A stretch of 64,000 nt of DNA. Source: Cetobacterium sp. NK01 (lineage in GTDB: Bacteria > Fusobacteriota > Fusobacteriia > Fusobacteriales > Fusobacteriaceae). The position numbers were made by a program, and so were the translations under genes. The stretch is taken from positions 186,001 through 250,000 of the forward strand of contig NZ_JANIBO010000001.1 in the NCBI RefSeq assembly GCF_024506395.1. Direction: 5' to 3'. A model generated the notes under the pieces. That model made no database searches. It had not been told where the DNA came from and saw only the letters and a list, made by a program, of their open reading frames with translations. The stretch's first letter is position 1. The number at the start of each line of letters is the position of its first letter. Below are positions 1 through 8,404 of the stretch, one piece after another.

Positions 1-536
1 ATCAATTTGTTAAAAATTTCTACTGTTTTTTCAATATCTCCCATTGCTGTATGTCTATTTTCAAAAGAAATATTAAAATATTTAATAGCATCATCCAATG
101 AATTAATTTGTTCATTTTTAAATTTTCCTGCTATAGTTAAAAATCTGAAAATACTTGCCGTATCTAACGATCTATAAGAAATAAATTCTTCATAATTTTT
201 TCCAACTTTATTATATAACTCTTTTATAAATCTAATATCAAAGTTAACATTGTGTCCACAAATAACGGCTTTTTCTTCTTTAAAATTTTTAATAATAAAG
301 TCATTAATTTTTTTTACTGCTTCTTCTTTTTTTATTCCAGCTTTTTTTACTACTTCTAAATTTAATTGATTAATTTCCATAGCTTTTTCTGTCACATTAT
401 AGCTTTCTTCTTTTATGAAAAATTCTAATCTGTCTACCACTAATTTATCGTTCCAACAAATCAATGCTACACTTAATAAACTATTTTCTTTTTCGTTAAT
501 TCCGCCTGTTTCTGTATCAATAAATAATAATTTCAT
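1..536 (-). CDS. DnaQ-like DEDDh 3'-5' exonuclease, partial (3' end outside window)
   Basis: The reading frame starts at ATG 536-534 and runs off the left edge with no stop, giving about 178 residues. It has the three exonuclease motifs of the DEDDh family: DTETGG near the N terminus (residues 7-12), HNVNFD in the middle, and HTAMGDIEKT near the visible end, where H and D would be the ExoIII-epsilon pair. Such enzymes remove nucleotides from DNA or RNA 3' ends with two metal ions. A GGAGG Shine-Dalgarno lies 8 bases upstream of the ATG, inside the upstream gene, whose stop codon lies 17 bases beyond this start. The 20-base overlap suggests translational coupling. A second complete DnaQ-like protein lies at 15284-15862. 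The substrate is unknown; the family call is secure. Confidence 0.85.
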   Translation of the reverse strand, partial: MKLLFIDTETGGINEKENSLLSVALICWNDKLVVDRLEFFIKEESYNVTEKAMEINQLNLEVVKKAGIKKEEAVKKINDFIIKNFKEEKAVICGHNVNFDIRFIKELYNKVGKNYEEFISYRSLDTASIFRFLTIAGKFKNEQINSLDDAIKYFNISFENRHTAMGDIEKTVEIFNKL

Positions 537-1359
537 TTTTTTTAACCTCCGATTTTAAGACTATTTTATAATATAATCCAACTAAAGTTTCATTACCACA
601 TAACGAGTAATATTTTTTATACTTTATATGAAATGTTAACCAACTAATAAACATCATCAATAAAAAAATTCCTGTAGGTATTTTCATTTTAACTTCAGTT
701 AAATAATCATCTTTAAAAACCAACAAACAAAAATTAATAAAGAAAATAAATGATAAAGATCTATATAATGTGTATTTTGCTAAGAATGTTGAACTTAAAG
801 ATTTTATATTTTCATTATCCTCATAAAATTTACTTATTTTATAAATACTATACCACTCTTTTTTTAAAGAAGTTTTTTTTTCTTTATTAATTTTTTCTAT
901 TATTTCCTCAATCATAAATTGATTTTCAGGAAAATATTTGGGAGCTTTAAAATAAAAAATATATCTTAAGTAATCTCTTAAAAATTTAGCTACGGGCCAT
1001 TTTTCTTCTTCTACAATTTTTCTAGAAAAACATAGAAAACATTTAATTATACCGCCACTTTCTTTACATTCATATTTTTTTAATATCCACTTATCAAATA
1101 AACTTGAAAAAAAATCATAAAATATTTGTGAAGCAATTTTAATAACATTTCCAACTAAATATAAGCATATACATATTCCTAAAAATAACCACCCTTTTTC
1201 AACTTTATGATCTTTCATAAAATCAAACAGTTTCTTTAAACTGATTGATAATTCTAAATCAAAGGTGTAGCATAGCATAACTGTAAATAACGTACCTGGT
1301 AAAATTAAGCCCAGTGTGTCATATGACCAATATTTTATTTTTTCAAGCCATTTTTCCAT
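517..1359 (-). CDS. Membrane protein of unknown function, coupled to exonuclease
   Basis: The product has 280 residues. I chose the ATG at 1359 because it follows GAGGGGG at good distance; an in-frame start 30 bases further upstream would fall inside a terminator hairpin (1376-1410). Hydrophobicity suggests four membrane segments: roughly residues 15-35 and 55-75, then a long charged cytoplasmic-type region with many Lys/Glu, then two more near 205-225 and 230-250. I recognise no catalytic motif or family. The gene overlaps the start of the downstream DEDDh exonuclease by 20 bases, so the two are probably made together. A membrane partner plus a nuclease is an arrangement seen in several phage-defence modules, but that is only an inference here. 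Confidence 0.65.
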   Translation of the reverse strand: MEKWLEKIKYWSYDTLGLILPGTLFTVMLCYTFDLELSISLKKLFDFMKDHKVEKGWLFLGICICLYLVGNVIKIASQIFYDFFSSLFDKWILKKYECKESGGIIKCFLCFSRKIVEEEKWPVAKFLRDYLRYIFYFKAPKYFPENQFMIEEIIEKINKEKKTSLKKEWYSIYKISKFYEDNENIKSLSSTFLAKYTLYRSLSFIFFINFCLLVFKDDYLTEVKMKIPTGIFLLMMFISWLTFHIKYKKYYSLCGNETLVGLYYKIVLKSEVKKNEIIIY

Positions 1360-1375
1360 TTGATCCCCCTCATAT

Positions 1376-1410
1376 AAAAAGACTATCATGTTAAAATGGA
1401 TAGTCTTTTT
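1376..1410. terminator. Bidirectional hairpin terminator
   Basis: AAAAAGACTATC and its reverse complement GATAGTCTTTTT are separated by 11 bases, giving a U-rich tail on both strands. It separates the 1521-1988 gene from the membrane protein/exonuclease pair. Confidence 0.7.
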
Positions 1411-1520
1411 TATGTTTTATTTTATTTTTTTAATATTTTTATATTTATTTAGTATCATATTTTTATCCCTAAGAAAGATTATATTATAACTTTTTCTTAA
1501 TGTCAATTCGCTACTATATA

Positions 1521-1988
1521 TCAACTTACTTTTATTTTTTCAAATGCGATTTTATAATATATTGCAATATAGCCTACTGTGAACATAAGCTCTTGCTCAG
1601 TATAATTGTGTTTTGAATTTTTTTGAACATAACCTATTATACTGTTGGCTTTTTGATGAACTTCTTCTGACATTTGGTATGTATTTCTTTTTGCATTCAA
1701 AACTTTTAATCCTGATGCTAAAACAGAACTCATATACGGTGTTCCAGTTTCAGTATCACAAAGATCAGCACAATGACTTTCCATATTTTTTAGTTCTGAG
1801 CTATAACTTCTTAAAAAACATACCAACTGTTCTTTGCTATAACTCTCTAATTTTTTAATAATTTCAGTATAATTTTTTCTTAATTTTTTCAAGTTGACTC
1901 CTTGCTTTTTCCAAGCATACAAAATAAGATAAAAAACTATTTCAATAGTACCATGTTGTAAATATTTTAGTTTTTTATTTGAATTCAA
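1521..1988 (-). CDS. Hypothetical protein, TTG start
   Basis: The product has 155 residues and I do not recognise it. The start is TTG at 1988-1986, only 3-4 bases after a perfect AGGAGG; no ATG is available near that Shine-Dalgarno. The protein looks mainly helical and soluble. It has several Cys/His residues around positions 56-80 (including HCADLC) that could bind a metal, but the spacing matches no family I know. The gene stands alone between a terminator (1376-1410) and a non-coding region, next to the RT-nitrilase gene, and so belongs to the same accessory stretch. Confidence 0.55.
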   Translation of the reverse strand: MNSNKKLKYLQHGTIEIVFYLILYAWKKQGVNLKKLRKNYTEIIKKLESYSKEQLVCFLRSYSSELKNMESHCADLCDTETGTPYMSSVLASGLKVLNAKRNTYQMSEEVHQKANSIIGYVQKNSKHNYTEQELMFTVGYIAIYYKIAFEKIKVS

Positions 1989-2230: not shown

Positions 2231-2576
2231 ATTTTATTGTAAAATTATGATAACATATTTTTTTTTAAAAATCTAGTTTTTTTATTTTTAAAACTGTTTT
2301 ATTTGCCTTTTTTTGCCTCTTTAAACATTTTTTAGTATTGGAGTATACATGTGTCACACCTGTGCCTTATTTTTAATTTTGTAAAGCATTTTGCTTTTAC
2401 AATATTTTAATAAATATTTTTGACTGCACCCAAAATGCACCCATTTTATTAAAAAAACAGTAAAAAATACTTATTTTTAAATTTTTGACCCATTAAAAAC
2501 CTAATAAAATCAATACATTTAAAAATAAACATTTTTTTCAAAGTTGAGTGGGAGTAGTTTTATATTACTTATAAAT
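2231..2576. other. Non-coding AT-rich spacer with TGCACCCA direct repeats
   Basis: No gene is visible. The segment contains a hairpin around 2381-2402 (TGTAAAGCA / TGCTTTTACA) and two TGCACCCA repeats at 2425-2432 and 2436-2443, exactly 11 bp (one helical turn) apart. Repeats of this type are typical of arm-type integrase sites near attachment sites of phages and integrative elements. No integrase gene is present, so this would be a remnant. Confidence 0.35.
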
Positions 2577-2661
2577 ATAGAATAAATAAGGCATTCTAAA
2601 TTCTTTGGACTTAGAATGACCTTTAAAGATTGAAAAGAGCCCTTTAAAGGCTCTTTTTCTT
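2577..2661 (+). ncRNA. Candidate structured RNA upstream of RT-nitrilase
   Basis: A stem-loop pairs CATTCTAA (2592-2599) with TTAGAATG (2611-2618), extended by GG/CC around a bulge. It is followed by a strong terminator: AAAAGAGCC (2633-2641), loop CTTTAAA, GGCTCTTTT (2649-2657), T-rich tail. The element ends 134 bases before the RT start codon. Several defence RTs use a neighbouring non-coding RNA as template or cofactor, so this may be part of the system. It may instead be only a leader attenuator or the terminator of an unseen short RNA. Confidence 0.45.
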
Positions 2662-2794
2662 TATTTACTTTTATACACAGAGTATATTTATTTTAATATT
2701 TTTAAATTCTATTTTTTATTAAAAAATTGTGTTGTTTTATATTTATTGTTGTATTATTATATTATCAATACTAGTAATTTTGGGAGGGGTTTTT

Positions 2795-5700
2795 ATGGCT
2801 TTTAAAGCTAAAGAAATTGAGTTAGCATATCTCACGTTTAAAGAATTAGTTTATTATGAAAATAATGTCTTACTTCATTTAAAAATGCAATTAGCAGATT
2901 TCGAGAATAAAAATAATTTTACATCAGAAGAAAGTCGATCATCCTTTTTTTACACTTTAGAAAATCTTTTGAATAATGGTAATACATTTGACAGTTTAAT
3001 TAATTCTCTTAATTTTAAAAAAGTTATAAAAAAATTAAATGATAATTCTAAAGATTTAGATATTTTAAATATTATTTCTCCATCTGATAAAAATTTATTA
3101 AGCGAAGATAAAATACAAAAAATTAACGATATTTTATTAGCAGATGATACTACTTTAACCTTACAGTATAATTATATAATTGATTGTGATATCACTTTAC
3201 ATATTTTATCTATATTATGGATTTTTAAAGTTGGATATAAATTTGATAAAACAGTACAAAGATACTCTTATGGATATAGATTAAATTTTACCAATGATAT
3301 CTTAGATACAAAACATCCTTTTAAAAGATATATAACACAATATCAAGCTTGGAAAAATAATGGAATAAAAAAAGCTAAAGAAATTACTCTTACTGATAAT
3401 GAAAATGCTGTTTTAATAAGTTTAGATCTAAAAAGATTTTACTATAGTATAAGTCATGAAATATTGAAGTCAAAAATGGAAAGTATTTTTGAAAATATTT
3501 CGGATAATTATCTAACAAAAATAATTCTAAATATAAATAAACAATATGATCTTCTTGTTTCAGAAGATATGAATGAAAACCGAGAAAAACATATTCTTCC
3601 CATTGGTTTATATAGTTCTCATATTCTCGCTAATATTTATCTAAAAGAATTGGATGAAAATATCCTAAAATTAAATCCGTCTTATTATGGAAGGTATGTC
3701 GACGATCTCTTTATTGTTTTTAAAGAATACGATTCTAGAAAGTTTATATCCAAGAAAAATTATTTAAAAGAAAAACTAGCTCCTCTTATAGAAAAAACTT
3801 TTATCGACAATATTGGCTTAGAAAAGTGTTTTAGTCAAGAACTTCTAATTGAAAACACAAAACATAAAACTATATTCTTAACTAATGAAAATAAAAAAGT
3901 TGAGATACTAAAAATTGAAAATAGCTTCTTGGAAAGAGCCAGCACCTTTACATTTTTACCAAATGAAAAAAATATTGAAGATTTATATAGAAAAATTTTC
4001 TCTGAAGAACATGAAGATACTAAAAGCAAAAAGTATGATGTTTCTGTTTACTTAGCAAAAATTTTAACTATTTTTTCAGGAATAAATAAAAATGAAAATA
4101 TTTCTCATATTAAAAAGAATACTAAAGATTTACTTGATTTCTTTGGAGAAGAAAATATTATCAAATATTCTGTTTACTTTGAAAAAATTTTTATTTTTTT
4201 AGTAATGATAGAAGACACAAAAGAAATTGAAAATTTCTATAAAAAAATCAATACTTATCTAAGTAAATTAGCTCAAAATGAAACCCCTAATAAACCTCAT
4301 ATTAATTATATTCATTTAAAAGAATACCTAAATAATTCTTTCTTTTTTGCTCTAAGTCTTAACCCAAAACTTTTAAAAAATTTTACTTTTGAATTTAAAT
4401 CTATTTTTAAAGATGATGACTTAGAAGAAACTTTATTTAAAATTTTTAATTCAAATATGTTAAAACAAAAAATGATACATTATCCTCTTCTAAGTTATCT
4501 TCCTTTAACTAAAGAAATTTATTTAAATTTTAATTTTTTTGAAGCTAGGTACTTTGATTTTGAAAAAAATCCTGATAATTTTGAAAATTTTAATCTCTGC
4601 GATCAAAAATTAAAATTATCTCCTCGTTTTATTCACTTAGATGAATTAAATATATTTTATATCAAAAGACATATCCTTAATCATGATAAAAATTTTGATT
4701 ATTTAGATATTAGTAAAGAAAAATTCACTCTTAATTTTAAAAGAAAAAACCAAGAAAAAGAAATTGAAGTATTTAAAAATAATATCTGTGATGTAGAATA
4801 TAATAATCTTCACTTATATAAAGTTAAATCTAATGATAAAAAAGAACTTAAAGAAGTAACTATAGGGATTGCAAGTTTGCTTATTGATGATCAAAAAGTG
4901 TTTAATGTTCTTGATGGAAATTACAATCTATCGTTTAATAAAAAAGAGCGTATTATGGATATTCTTAATTTGAGCAAAAAACATAACGTTAACATTTTAA
5001 TTTTTCCTGAAGTATCTATCCCTTTTCAATGGTTAAAATTTATTAATGAGTTCTCGAGAAAAAATCAAATTTTGATTACTGGCGGCCTTGAGCATATCCA
5101 TTGTCCTAGTATAAAATACAAGGATTCGTACAAAAAATATGCTTATAATTATTTATTTACAACATTGCCTTTTTCAACTAGTAGTTACAAATCTTCATTT
5201 ATAAAAATCAGACTAAAAAACCACTACGCTCCAGGTGAAAAAGATTTTATCGAAGGCAAAAACTTTTCGATTCCTAAACCTTTTCCAATAAAGTATGATA
5301 TTTTTTCATGGGAAGGTATTCACTTTTCAAATTTTAATTGTTTTGAATTATCTGATATTGAAGGAAGAAGTAAATTAAAAAATTATATTGATTTATTAAT
5401 AGCCTCTGTTTTTAATAGAGATCTTCATTACTTTAAAAATATTTTAGAATCCACTTGTAGAGATTTACATGTCTATGTTGCTCAAAGTAATACTTCTATT
5501 TATGGTGATTGTGAAATCATGCAACCTACAAAAAAAGAAAGTATGATTTTAGGATGTCTAAAAGGAGGAATTAATGATAATCTTTTAGTTGACAAAATTG
5601 ATATCCAAAAATTACGAGAATTTCAACTTTTAAACAATACCTTGCAGAAAAGTAATAATAAATTCAAAGTAACACCTCCAGGAATTGATCCTGATATAGT

Positions 5701-5893
5701 AACGGTCAGAAATAATAACTCTTTAGATCTTTTTTTCAAAGAAAATTTATCAAATCCTAAGATAGAATTATTAAAAGAATTATTATCCAATAATCTTCTG
5801 ATTACAAATGATTTTGATAAATTGTCCAATTCTATTTCAAAGATTTTAAAACTAGACTTGAAAAAAACCAAAGATATTATAAAAAAAGAATAA
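2795..5893 (+). CDS. Reverse transcriptase-nitrilase fusion, DRT type 1 (UG1)-like defence RT
   Basis: The product has 1,032 residues. ATG 2795 follows GGGAGGGG; upstream GTG starts would add only a spurious hydrophobic leader. The RT domain spans roughly residues 95-335. Motif A is SLDLKRFYYSIS with catalytic D211, motif B is IGLYSSHILAN (about 270-280), and motif C is YVDD at 301-304, the two aspartates being metal ligands. A long helical middle region (about 340-680) shows no family I recognise. From about residue 685 there is a carbon-nitrogen hydrolase fold with an apparently intact Glu-Lys-Cys triad: E739 in IFPEVSIP, K808 in RLKNHYAPGEK, C849 in NCFELSD. RT plus C-terminal nitrilase is the layout of defence-associated RT type 1 of the unknown-group RTs, which protect against phage. 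It is probably cytoplasmic. Structured elements flank it on both sides (2577-2661 and 5900-5962). The subgroup would need a tree to settle. Confidence 0.88.
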   Translation: MAFKAKEIELAYLTFKELVYYENNVLLHLKMQLADFENKNNFTSEESRSSFFYTLENLLNNGNTFDSLINSLNFKKVIKKLNDNSKDLDILNIISPSDKNLLSEDKIQKINDILLADDTTLTLQYNYIIDCDITLHILSILWIFKVGYKFDKTVQRYSYGYRLNFTNDILDTKHPFKRYITQYQAWKNNGIKKAKEITLTDNENAVLISLDLKRFYYSISHEILKSKMESIFENISDNYLTKIILNINKQYDLLVSEDMNENREKHILPIGLYSSHILANIYLKELDENILKLNPSYYGRYVDDLFIVFKEYDSRKFISKKNYLKEKLAPLIEKTFIDNIGLEKCFSQELLIENTKHKTIFLTNENKKVEILKIENSFLERASTFTFLPNEKNIEDLYRKIFSEEHEDTKSKKYDVSVYLAKILTIFSGINKNENISHIKKNTKDLLDFFGEENIIKYSVYFEKIFIFLVMIEDTKEIENFYKKINTYLSKLAQNETPNKPHINYIHLKEYLNNSFFFALSLNPKLLKNFTFEFKSIFKDDDLEETLFKIFNSNMLKQKMIHYPLLSYLPLTKEIYLNFNFFEARYFDFEKNPDNFENFNLCDQKLKLSPRFIHLDELNIFYIKRHILNHDKNFDYLDISKEKFTLNFKRKNQEKEIEVFKNNICDVEYNNLHLYKVKSNDKKELKEVTIGIASLLIDDQKVFNVLDGNYNLSFNKKERIMDILNLSKKHNVNILIFPEVSIPFQWLKFINEFSRKNQILITGGLEHIHCPSIKYKDSYKKYAYNYLFTTLPFSTSSYKSSFIKIRLKNHYAPGEKDFIEGKNFSIPKPFPIKYDIFSWEGIHFSNFNCFELSDIEGRSKLKNYIDLLIASVFNRDLHYFKNILESTCRDLHVYVAQSNTSIYGDCEIMQPTKKESMILGCLKGGINDNLLVDKIDIQKLREFQLLNNTLQKSNNKFKVTPPGIDPDIVTVRNNNSLDLFFKENLSNPKIELLKELLSNNLLITNDFDKLSNSISKILKLDLKKTKDIIKKE

Positions 5894-5899
5894 AATTAA

Positions 5900-5962
5900 T
5901 ATAATCCCCTCAAGGTAGAGAGATAGTAAAAAAGAGACGTATAAAGCCTTAAGGGGATTATA
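5900..5962. repeat. 16-bp inverted repeat after RT stop codon
   Basis: TATAATCCCCTCAAGG (5900-5915) faces CCTTAAGGGGATTATA (5947-5962) with a 31-base loop. The single mismatch is C-A on the plus strand but becomes a G-U pair on the minus strand, so the fold is perfect only if the minus strand is transcribed. There is no T-run, so it is not an ordinary terminator. It begins 7 bases after the RT stop codon. Confidence 0.6.
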
Positions 5963-6317
5963 CTGTCTTAATTATCTTTAAAATATTTATATTAAAGAAA
6001 TATTTTATCCAAACTCTAGCATTGCTAAAAAAATTCCATATTTTAAAACTACTAAAAATCTAAGTTTTTTATTATTTAATTTTATATTTTTAATTTTTCA
6101 ATTACAAGTATTATCTTGCTAAGATTTTCTTTTAAATTGCTATCCAACAAATTCAAACTCTTTATTTCTCAAAATACAACTTAAATTGTGTACATTTTTA
6201 AGATACGTTTTAAAAATTGTATCAAAAAACAACTATTTTTCTTCCTAAATTATAGAAAAACCCTTTTTTTTATGCTAAAATATTTATAACACTTACCGGG
6301 GGAGGGAATAATAAATT
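5963..6317. other. AT-rich intergenic region with a hairpin
   Basis: No gene is visible. A 10-bp hairpin (TAAAATATTT 5979-5988 with AAATATTTTA 5998-6007) follows the inverted repeat of the RT gene. The rest is AT-rich without clear structure. A weak -10-like TAAAAT lies about 45 bases upstream of the next gene. Confidence 0.4.
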
Positions 6318-6656
6318 ATGTTAAAAAAAATTAAAACTATTTCTGAAAATCTTTCTAATAGCGAAATTCCTAAAGTTTTTGATCATTTTGGAAAAAAGAT
6401 ACTTCCTTTTTATAGAAGAGAAGTAAGTACTCGAACAACTCATGGGGGAACTTGGGATATAGAGGAAGAATTTATCATTGGAATCACAAATCATGGTTGG
6501 GCAAAATATGACTATATTCTTAATTGCTCATCAGAAGCAGAAGTTAAGAATCATCTTTCTGAAGAGATTATGACACCTTTAACTTATGAAAATATACTAT
6601 TTTATTGTAATACAATACCTGAGCTTAAAGAGAAGATCCAAGAGTGTGGTATTTAA
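6318..6656 (+). CDS. Small hypothetical protein downstream of RT-nitrilase
   Basis: The product has 112 residues with no family I recognise. It starts with a Lys-rich helix, then a mixed region with a conserved-looking segment near residue 42 (THGGTWDIEEEFIIGITNHG) that could be a beta hairpin, then a charged helical C terminus. No signal peptide or membrane segment. An unusually G-rich tract, GGGGGAGGG, sits about 11 bases before the ATG; that is long spacing for a Shine-Dalgarno. The gene is monocistronic with a strong terminator (6661-6688). It lies 424 bases after the RT, too far to be sure of a shared transcript. Confidence 0.55.
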   Translation: MLKKIKTISENLSNSEIPKVFDHFGKKILPFYRREVSTRTTHGGTWDIEEEFIIGITNHGWAKYDYILNCSSEAEVKNHLSEEIMTPLTYENILFYCNTIPELKEKIQECGI

Positions 6657-7918: not shown

Positions 7919-8404
7919 ATGACTAATGAAATAAAAATTGCTACTTTTTTAAAAGTTGCCAAAATATTAAATGAAAATAATATCACTTGGGCTGTTGGAG
8001 CCTCTCTATTATTATACCTTAAAGGGATTACTGATAAATTTAATGATATTGATCTTATGGTAGCTGAAAATGATATTGAAAAAACTAAAAATATATTTTT
8101 ATCTCTTGGAAAAGAATATGCTAAGAATCCTAATCTTCAATATAAATCTAAATGCTTTTTAGAATTTAATGTTGATGGTATAGATTTTGATATTATCAGT
8201 GGATTTGTTATAGTAAACAATAACTGCGACCACTATTTTCCACTTGAAAAAAACAGTATTGCAGAATACTTTTGTTTAGAAAACATCTCTATTCCTTTAC
8301 AATCAGTAAATGACTGGCTTACTTACTATAGCTTAATGAATAGAAAAGAAAAAGTGGAAATGATTAAGAATTATCTTAATAAAAACATTAAAGAATTAAA
8401 ATAA
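7919..8404 (+). CDS. Nucleotidyltransferase-like protein
   Basis: The product has 161 residues. Residues about 23-48 carry the nucleotidyltransferase signature: WAVGASLLLYLKG followed by FNDIDLMV, where the aspartates of DID would bind metal. A third acidic strand may be DGIDFDII at about residues 82-89. This resembles the small proteins of the polymerase-beta-like superfamily that includes aminoglycoside and tRNA nucleotidyltransferases and the toxins of MNT/HEPN pairs. No HEPN or antitoxin partner lies beside it. Shine-Dalgarno AGAGGTG lies upstream, a -10-like TATAAT at 7853-7858, and a strong terminator follows. Substrate unknown. Confidence 0.65.
   Translation: MTNEIKIATFLKVAKILNENNITWAVGASLLLYLKGITDKFNDIDLMVAENDIEKTKNIFLSLGKEYAKNPNLQYKSKCFLEFNVDGIDFDIISGFVIVNNNCDHYFPLEKNSIAEYFCLENISIPLQSVNDWLTYYSLMNRKEKVEMIKNYLNKNIKELK

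Follow-up and report, generated by a model that had tools for sequence, protein, structure and literature searches.

Organization of the locus

The window, i.e. the whole stretch of 64,000 nucleotides of Cetobacterium sp. NK01 DNA that was analysed, contains at positions 2795 to 5893 (+) an intact open reading frame for a protein of 1,032 amino acids, as the preliminary description of this DNA had stated. A mechanical ORF listing puts the start of the gene at GTG 2729. However, ATG 2795 is the likelier start, because the Shine-Dalgarno-like sequence GGGAGGGG (2781 to 2788, +), read directly from the DNA, lies just 5′ of it.

The genomic context had been described as lacking an integrase, which has to be corrected. 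A tyrosine recombinase of 355 amino acids (G000:C1:184879-185946, L028:8880-9947; Pfam Phage_integrase 3e-22) ends 54 bp before the window start. It follows guaA, which ends at L028:7743, and the corresponding element is bounded by attL, located in the 3′ end of guaA (L028:7732), and by attR at window position 2546. The window starts just inside this element and the RT gene lies beyond attR. The terminal region of the element up to attR (2425 to 2556, +) shows 98% identity to sequence beside the integrase element of genome G005 and 79-88% elsewhere. The attR core GAGTGGGAGTAG, together with native sequence downstream of guaA (2546 to 2618, +), matches the 3′ region of guaA in G007 and G010 with 85% and 82% identity, respectively. 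The integrase element is small (window 1-1988 plus L028:8880-9947), with a DnaQ-like exonuclease, a membrane-type protein of 290 amino acids and a protein of unknown function of 155 amino acids as cargo. Its 132-bp end was seen in another genome with 98% identity (window 2425-2556; L021:7375-7506; L023:3943-4138), and the element copy in G048 adjoins a Ppl-like defence gene.

The RT gene occupies a slot between the native guaA-downstream sequence and a conserved ORF of 112 amino acids (6318 to 6656, +; 98% identity in G008 and G010), and collinearity with the sister genomes resumes at window 6149-6181. In G008 this slot is occupied by an RT of 501 amino acids and in G010 by Hachiman HamA/HamB; the gene immediately after guaA in G007 encodes a UG31 RT, and its right neighbour is a different one. 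The guaA-downstream slot is a defence hotspot, and in Streptococcus suis, too, guaA is known to serve as a site of integration (PMC12479173). The slot coordinates are window 2546-6148, L022:7991-9496, L027:1342-5258 and L026:7584-9107. Further downstream, a nucleotidyltransferase-like gene for 161 amino acids (7919-8404; weak PF14907) is absent from the otherwise collinear locus of G008. For the RT gene itself, phage protection is the predicted role, in keeping with the defence genes that fill the same slot in sister genomes.

Assignment to the UG5-nitrilase family

The preliminary description had recognized a fusion of RT and nitrilase of the defence type and had assigned it to DRT type 1. 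The architecture was borne out by PADLOC, but the subfamily is a different one. The RT_UG5-nitrilase model reaches 617 bits over residues 3-970 and a second UG5-nitrilase model 279 bits, whereas Drt1a (UG1) scores 81 bits. The profile searches suggested at that time gave 77 bits for the PADLOC RTasNitrilase model and, with Pfam, a match to RVT_1 only (E=2e-11). In the PDB, the best match of a UG5 profile is DRT1 (9YFD; E=2.6e-32), with both the RT and the nitrilase domain covered. In a tree of 45 RTs, obtained by a quick search and with some forks unsupported, UG1 and UG5 are sister groups (SH-aLRT 97 for the joint clade and 96 for UG5), and the window RT falls into the UG5 clade and outside the UG1 clade. 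The label DRT type 1 (UG1) is ruled out by the profile scores and this position in the tree. The window protein is a UG5-nitrilase of the large form, a sister of DRT1 within the class 3 UG/Abi RTs. The enzymes DRT5S and DRT5L of a recent study (PMC13275509) are taken here as the small and large forms of UG5, which is one reading of the labels in that paper. UG5 is a widespread, yet less studied part of the class 3 DRTs.

Domain organization and catalytic sites

Palm and fingers of the RT were located by Pfam and the UG5 alignment to residues 126-317 (3170 to 3745, +), with D211 of motif A (3425 to 3427) and YVDD at 301-304 (3695 to 3706), the motifs that had been noted before. YVDD is kept in all 82 UG5 homologues, and D211 is invariant at every covered position. 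The nitrilase (CN-hydrolase) domain comprises residues 683-968 (4841 to 5698, +). Here, the triad E739, K808 and C849 named in the preliminary description was confirmed as nitrilase catalytic residues and is completed to a tetrad by E815. E739, K808 and E815 do not vary and C849 hardly varies; the tetrad is kept in nearly all fused relatives and in 15 of 15 separately encoded nitrilases. Both catalytic centres, which had looked active in the preliminary description, are conserved.

An AlphaFold2 model of the whole protein (pLDDT 82.6, pTM 0.84) gives a CN-hydrolase fold for residues 683-968, with Z of 21-23 (up to 23.0) to amidases, Nit2 and nitrilases. Together with the conserved tetrad, this fold speaks for a genuine nitrilase site. 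The long middle region, for which a structure prediction had been proposed, is nearly all helical in this model, and residues about 384-680 (3944 to 4834, +) form helical repeats also when modelled alone (pLDDT 84.2). A specific fold relative did not emerge: Foldseek with the alpha-repeat domain alone returned nothing significant (best E 0.08), and matches to helical repeats reached middling Z of up to 10.4. As these fold matches are weak, no function is drawn from the repeat region. AbiA, AbiK and DRT entries match the whole model, a match that the RT may drive. DRT1 is likewise described with an alpha-helical repeat domain (PMC13275509).

A segment of the form LR-x-FQ...FK-x-x-PP is conserved C-terminal to the nitrilase core, also in the split nitrilases. 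In the window protein, the segment at residues 950-962 (5642 to 5680, +) contains FK-x-TPP, and K958 and P961 are nearly invariant, again including the split nitrilases. In the UG5 profile the segment aligns with residues 1204-1226 of DRT1, the C terminus of which closes the nitrilase site (PMC13275509). The part around F957-K958 is perhaps a lid of the nitrilase site in the window protein as well. The tail past K958 is long, with 74 amino acids (5669 to 5890, +) compared to 80 in the nearest relative and about 20 in most others. This tail, without counterpart in most relatives, might alter the assembly of the protein.

A candidate priming serine

DRT1 primes DNA on its own S402, and the exchange S402A abolishes defence (PMC13275509). 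The same study left the priming residue of UG5 unnamed and reported that S402 lacks conservation in the remaining class 3 DRTs. In the span from RT to nitrilase (residues 309-690), only four columns of the UG5 alignment reach at least 90% identity, namely K356, S383, a tryptophan at 462 and P610, and S383 is the sole hydroxyl residue among them. Column 383 is a serine in 81 of the 82 homologues and in 49 of the 50 representatives at less than 50% identity. The lone exception is a threonine in L071, probably an alignment shift, since a serine stands two residues earlier. K356 (codon 3860 to 3862, +) is invariant (82/82), and its distance of 27 residues to S383 (codon 3941 to 3943, +) is kept in 78 of the 82. 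The same arrangement is found in the sister group: the S402 column of six UG1 sequences, among them DRT1, is serine throughout and lies 25-29 residues past the counterpart lysine (29 in DRT1 itself). HMMER sets S402 of DRT1 three columns apart from S383, an offset which arises because the following proline gets aligned.

The near-invariance of S383 and its DRT1-like spacing from the lysine therefore suggest this residue as the candidate for UG5 priming; as the putative counterpart of S402 it is a strong match by position, and the role as primer is what we infer from it. We are inclined to think, with some reserve, that S383 primes DNA across the whole UG5 branch and that UG1 and UG5 share an ancestral serine site which is set by the distance to the lysine. 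This reading runs contrary to the published statement on non-conservation (PMC13275509), which can be counted in favour of a primer elsewhere in the same protein acting by the same mechanism, such as an invariant tyrosine close to the RT site (Y179, Y183) or one at the N terminus. Such residues exist: Y179, Y298 and Y301 are invariant in the UG5 alignment, and Y183 and Y12 nearly so (Y179 80/80, Y183 78/80, Y12 74/80). However, Y298 and Y301 are part of the YYGRYVDD motif, so that their conservation requires no role in priming, and of the four conserved columns between the domains only that of S383 has a hydroxyl residue, at the spacing known from DRT1. A tyrosine primer is a serious alternative but the less probable one. 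The proposal of S383 as the candidate UG5 primer is new here, together with the corrected genomic context, and naming it turns the question of DNA attachment in UG5 into a test of one mutant.

Structured DNA in the flanks

Structured, apparently non-coding DNA had been noted on both sides of the gene. Structure is indeed present on both sides, but its reading as a non-coding RNA (ncRNA) was not confirmed. Upstream, a terminator search found two intrinsic-terminator-like hairpins compared to 0.2 expected, one inside the integrase element (2196 to 2227, +) and one 5′ of the RT gene (2632 to 2658, +; fold z=-5.3 for 2590-2680). Downstream, a hairpin at 5904 to 5963 (+; fold z=-3.8) is like the left end of an IS3-like element. 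Its 5′ half resembles the IS3-like end by a transposase of 391 amino acids in G046, which belongs to another genus (84% match), and it is a probable IS remnant. The structure in both flanks fits the att/guaA 3′-end region (2425-2618), two terminators and an IS-end-like hairpin.

These assignments bear on the idea of an RNA-templated DRT, in which a structured stretch in one flank would encode an ncRNA for the RT to copy, like the ncRNAs of DRT2, DRT9 or retrons. The folding of three stretches in the flanks (z from -3.5 to -5.3) would agree with it, but the upstream structures are accounted for by terminators and the att/guaA region and the downstream one by its resemblance to an IS end. In addition, Rfam gave only tRNAs across the window, and a DNA-similarity search did not find the flanking DNA of the window beside other UG5 genes. 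Of 72 UG5 loci, 28 have an upstream ORF at a distance of 100 bp or less, and the loci as a set offer no regular room for an ncRNA. A conserved ncRNA, as is associated with class 2 DRTs (DRT2/DRT9-like), was found neither by Rfam in the window nor by DNA similarity beside UG5 genes. Since class 3 enzymes are moreover active in the absence of RNA and also when RNase A is added (PMC13275509), templating by RNA is very improbable. A conserved flanking ncRNA was rejected after the checks by Rfam, DNA similarity, folding and intergenic space.

Relatives and their fused and split forms

Any match at all occurs in only 4 of the 98 genomes of the phylum sample, the genome of the window counted. Two of the sampled genomes encode full-length relatives, G022 with 46% and G047, of the same family as the host, with about 36% identity, so that the protein is a divergent member, as had been expected. 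G018 contains a remnant of a UG5 gene, a decayed piece of its nitrilase domain at L020 about 5981-6086. The sparse occurrence and the remnant in G018 would also be expected of a decaying passenger gene beside a mobile element that has lost its function. We give this little credence for the window gene, as its frame is intact over the full length, the catalytic residues and those invariant in the family are all present, and a Shine-Dalgarno-like site precedes it.

A search of genome contigs for close relatives with the single sequence found none. With a profile from an alignment of five sequences, at least 498 of the 586 candidate stretches from genome contigs proved to encode a UG5 relative, and 80 of these loci were retained. 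Distant relatives are present on plasmids of E. coli and Sinorhizobium. Named phage records gave no UG5 match, and a few near-full-length matches are present in viral contigs. The relatives at L018, L019 and L031 adjoin restriction-type genes, an Orf5/HEC-06-type gene and an AbiEi/AbiEii pair.

The relatives come in two forms, either as fused proteins of about 950-1,150 amino acids or as an RT of about 640-700 amino acids followed by a separate nitrilase gene. In the latter, the nitrilase starts -50 to +4 nucleotides from the stop of the RT gene, i.e. the genes overlap or abut. The split forms sit in two distinct neighbourhoods of fused forms in the tree of 45 RTs, which suggests that splitting or fusion of RT and nitrilase arose repeatedly. 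Such repetition would show that the pair is a functional unit. The split forms may also be helpful on the way to the nitrilase substrate, because there the effector can be purified alone.

The preliminary description had named a grouping with retrons or group II introns as the outcome that would speak against it. In the tree, which includes group II intron-like RTs and no confirmed retron, the joint clade of UG1 and UG5 is separate from the group II intron-like RTs of the genus, and the UG5 profile scores 115 bits with DRT1, 42 with the best retron and 23 with a group II intron RT. The chance that the protein is a retron, a group II intron or another non-defence RT with a nitrilase domain adjoining by accident is negligible, as its weak generic RT likeness to 6AR1 is contradicted by the UG5 family score, by the tree and by dozens of RT-nitrilase pairs, fused or adjacent, across phyla.

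Proposed mechanism

We consider it likely that the window protein works as DRT1 does, with template-free, protein-primed DNA controlling a nitrilase that aborts infection. The mechanism of the family is largely understood through its sister DRT1. Purified DRT1, DRT5S and DRT5L synthesize DNA without template, and covalent, protein-bound DNA was reported for DRT1 and DRT5; in DRT1, control is exerted through a filament and both active sites are required (PMC13275509). In the window protein, the RT would add deoxynucleotides to its own chain without an RNA template, most likely at Ser383, where the segment behind the RT domain ends. The single-stranded DNA adducts would drive and control the assembly of the protein via the helical repeats and the nitrilase domain. 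Once this assembly is disturbed by a phage, the nitrilase site (E739, K808, E815, C849), perhaps closed by a C-terminal lid around F957-K958, would act. Hydrolysis of a C-N bond in an essential metabolite, or formation of a toxic product, would then abort the infection. From the sequence, several features are consistent with this: the UG5 family, the apparently intact catalytic residues, the near-invariant serine at the priming position of DRT1, the conserved C-terminal segment and the tight linkage of RT and nitrilase even when split. The DRT1-like action of the window protein and the use of Ser383 as its primer are what we infer from these features.

Comparison with known systems

Other UG/Abi RTs that were found in the structure search, i.e. 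AbiA, AbiK, DRT4, DRT6 and DRT9, likewise combine an RT with a helical region. They differ from the window protein in being without a nitrilase and in belonging to other classes, some with an ncRNA. The small form of UG5 with a separate nitrilase gene (PADLOC PDLC03781, PDLC03804) has the same RT with an invariant counterpart of S383, and its nitrilase has the tetrad and the FK-x-x-PP segment as in the window protein. However, these are two overlapping or abutting genes instead of a single fusion. With the large form of UG5-nitrilase (PADLOC PDLC03780; taken as DRT5L, PMC13275509) the window protein shares the full-length profile match and the succession of RT, helical middle and C-terminal nitrilase tetrad on one chain, although its identity to the collected UG5 relatives is only 19-46%. 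DRT1 of the sister family UG1 (PDB 9YFD) is longer, with 1,229 compared to 1,032 amino acids, its serine motif and lid sequence are unlike those of the window protein, and some DRT1 loci contain drt1b. Nevertheless, DRT1 likewise consists of an RT, helical repeats and a C-terminal nitrilase and has a serine 25-29 residues past an invariant lysine, and for the C-terminal segment that closes its nitrilase site the window protein has a candidate counterpart.
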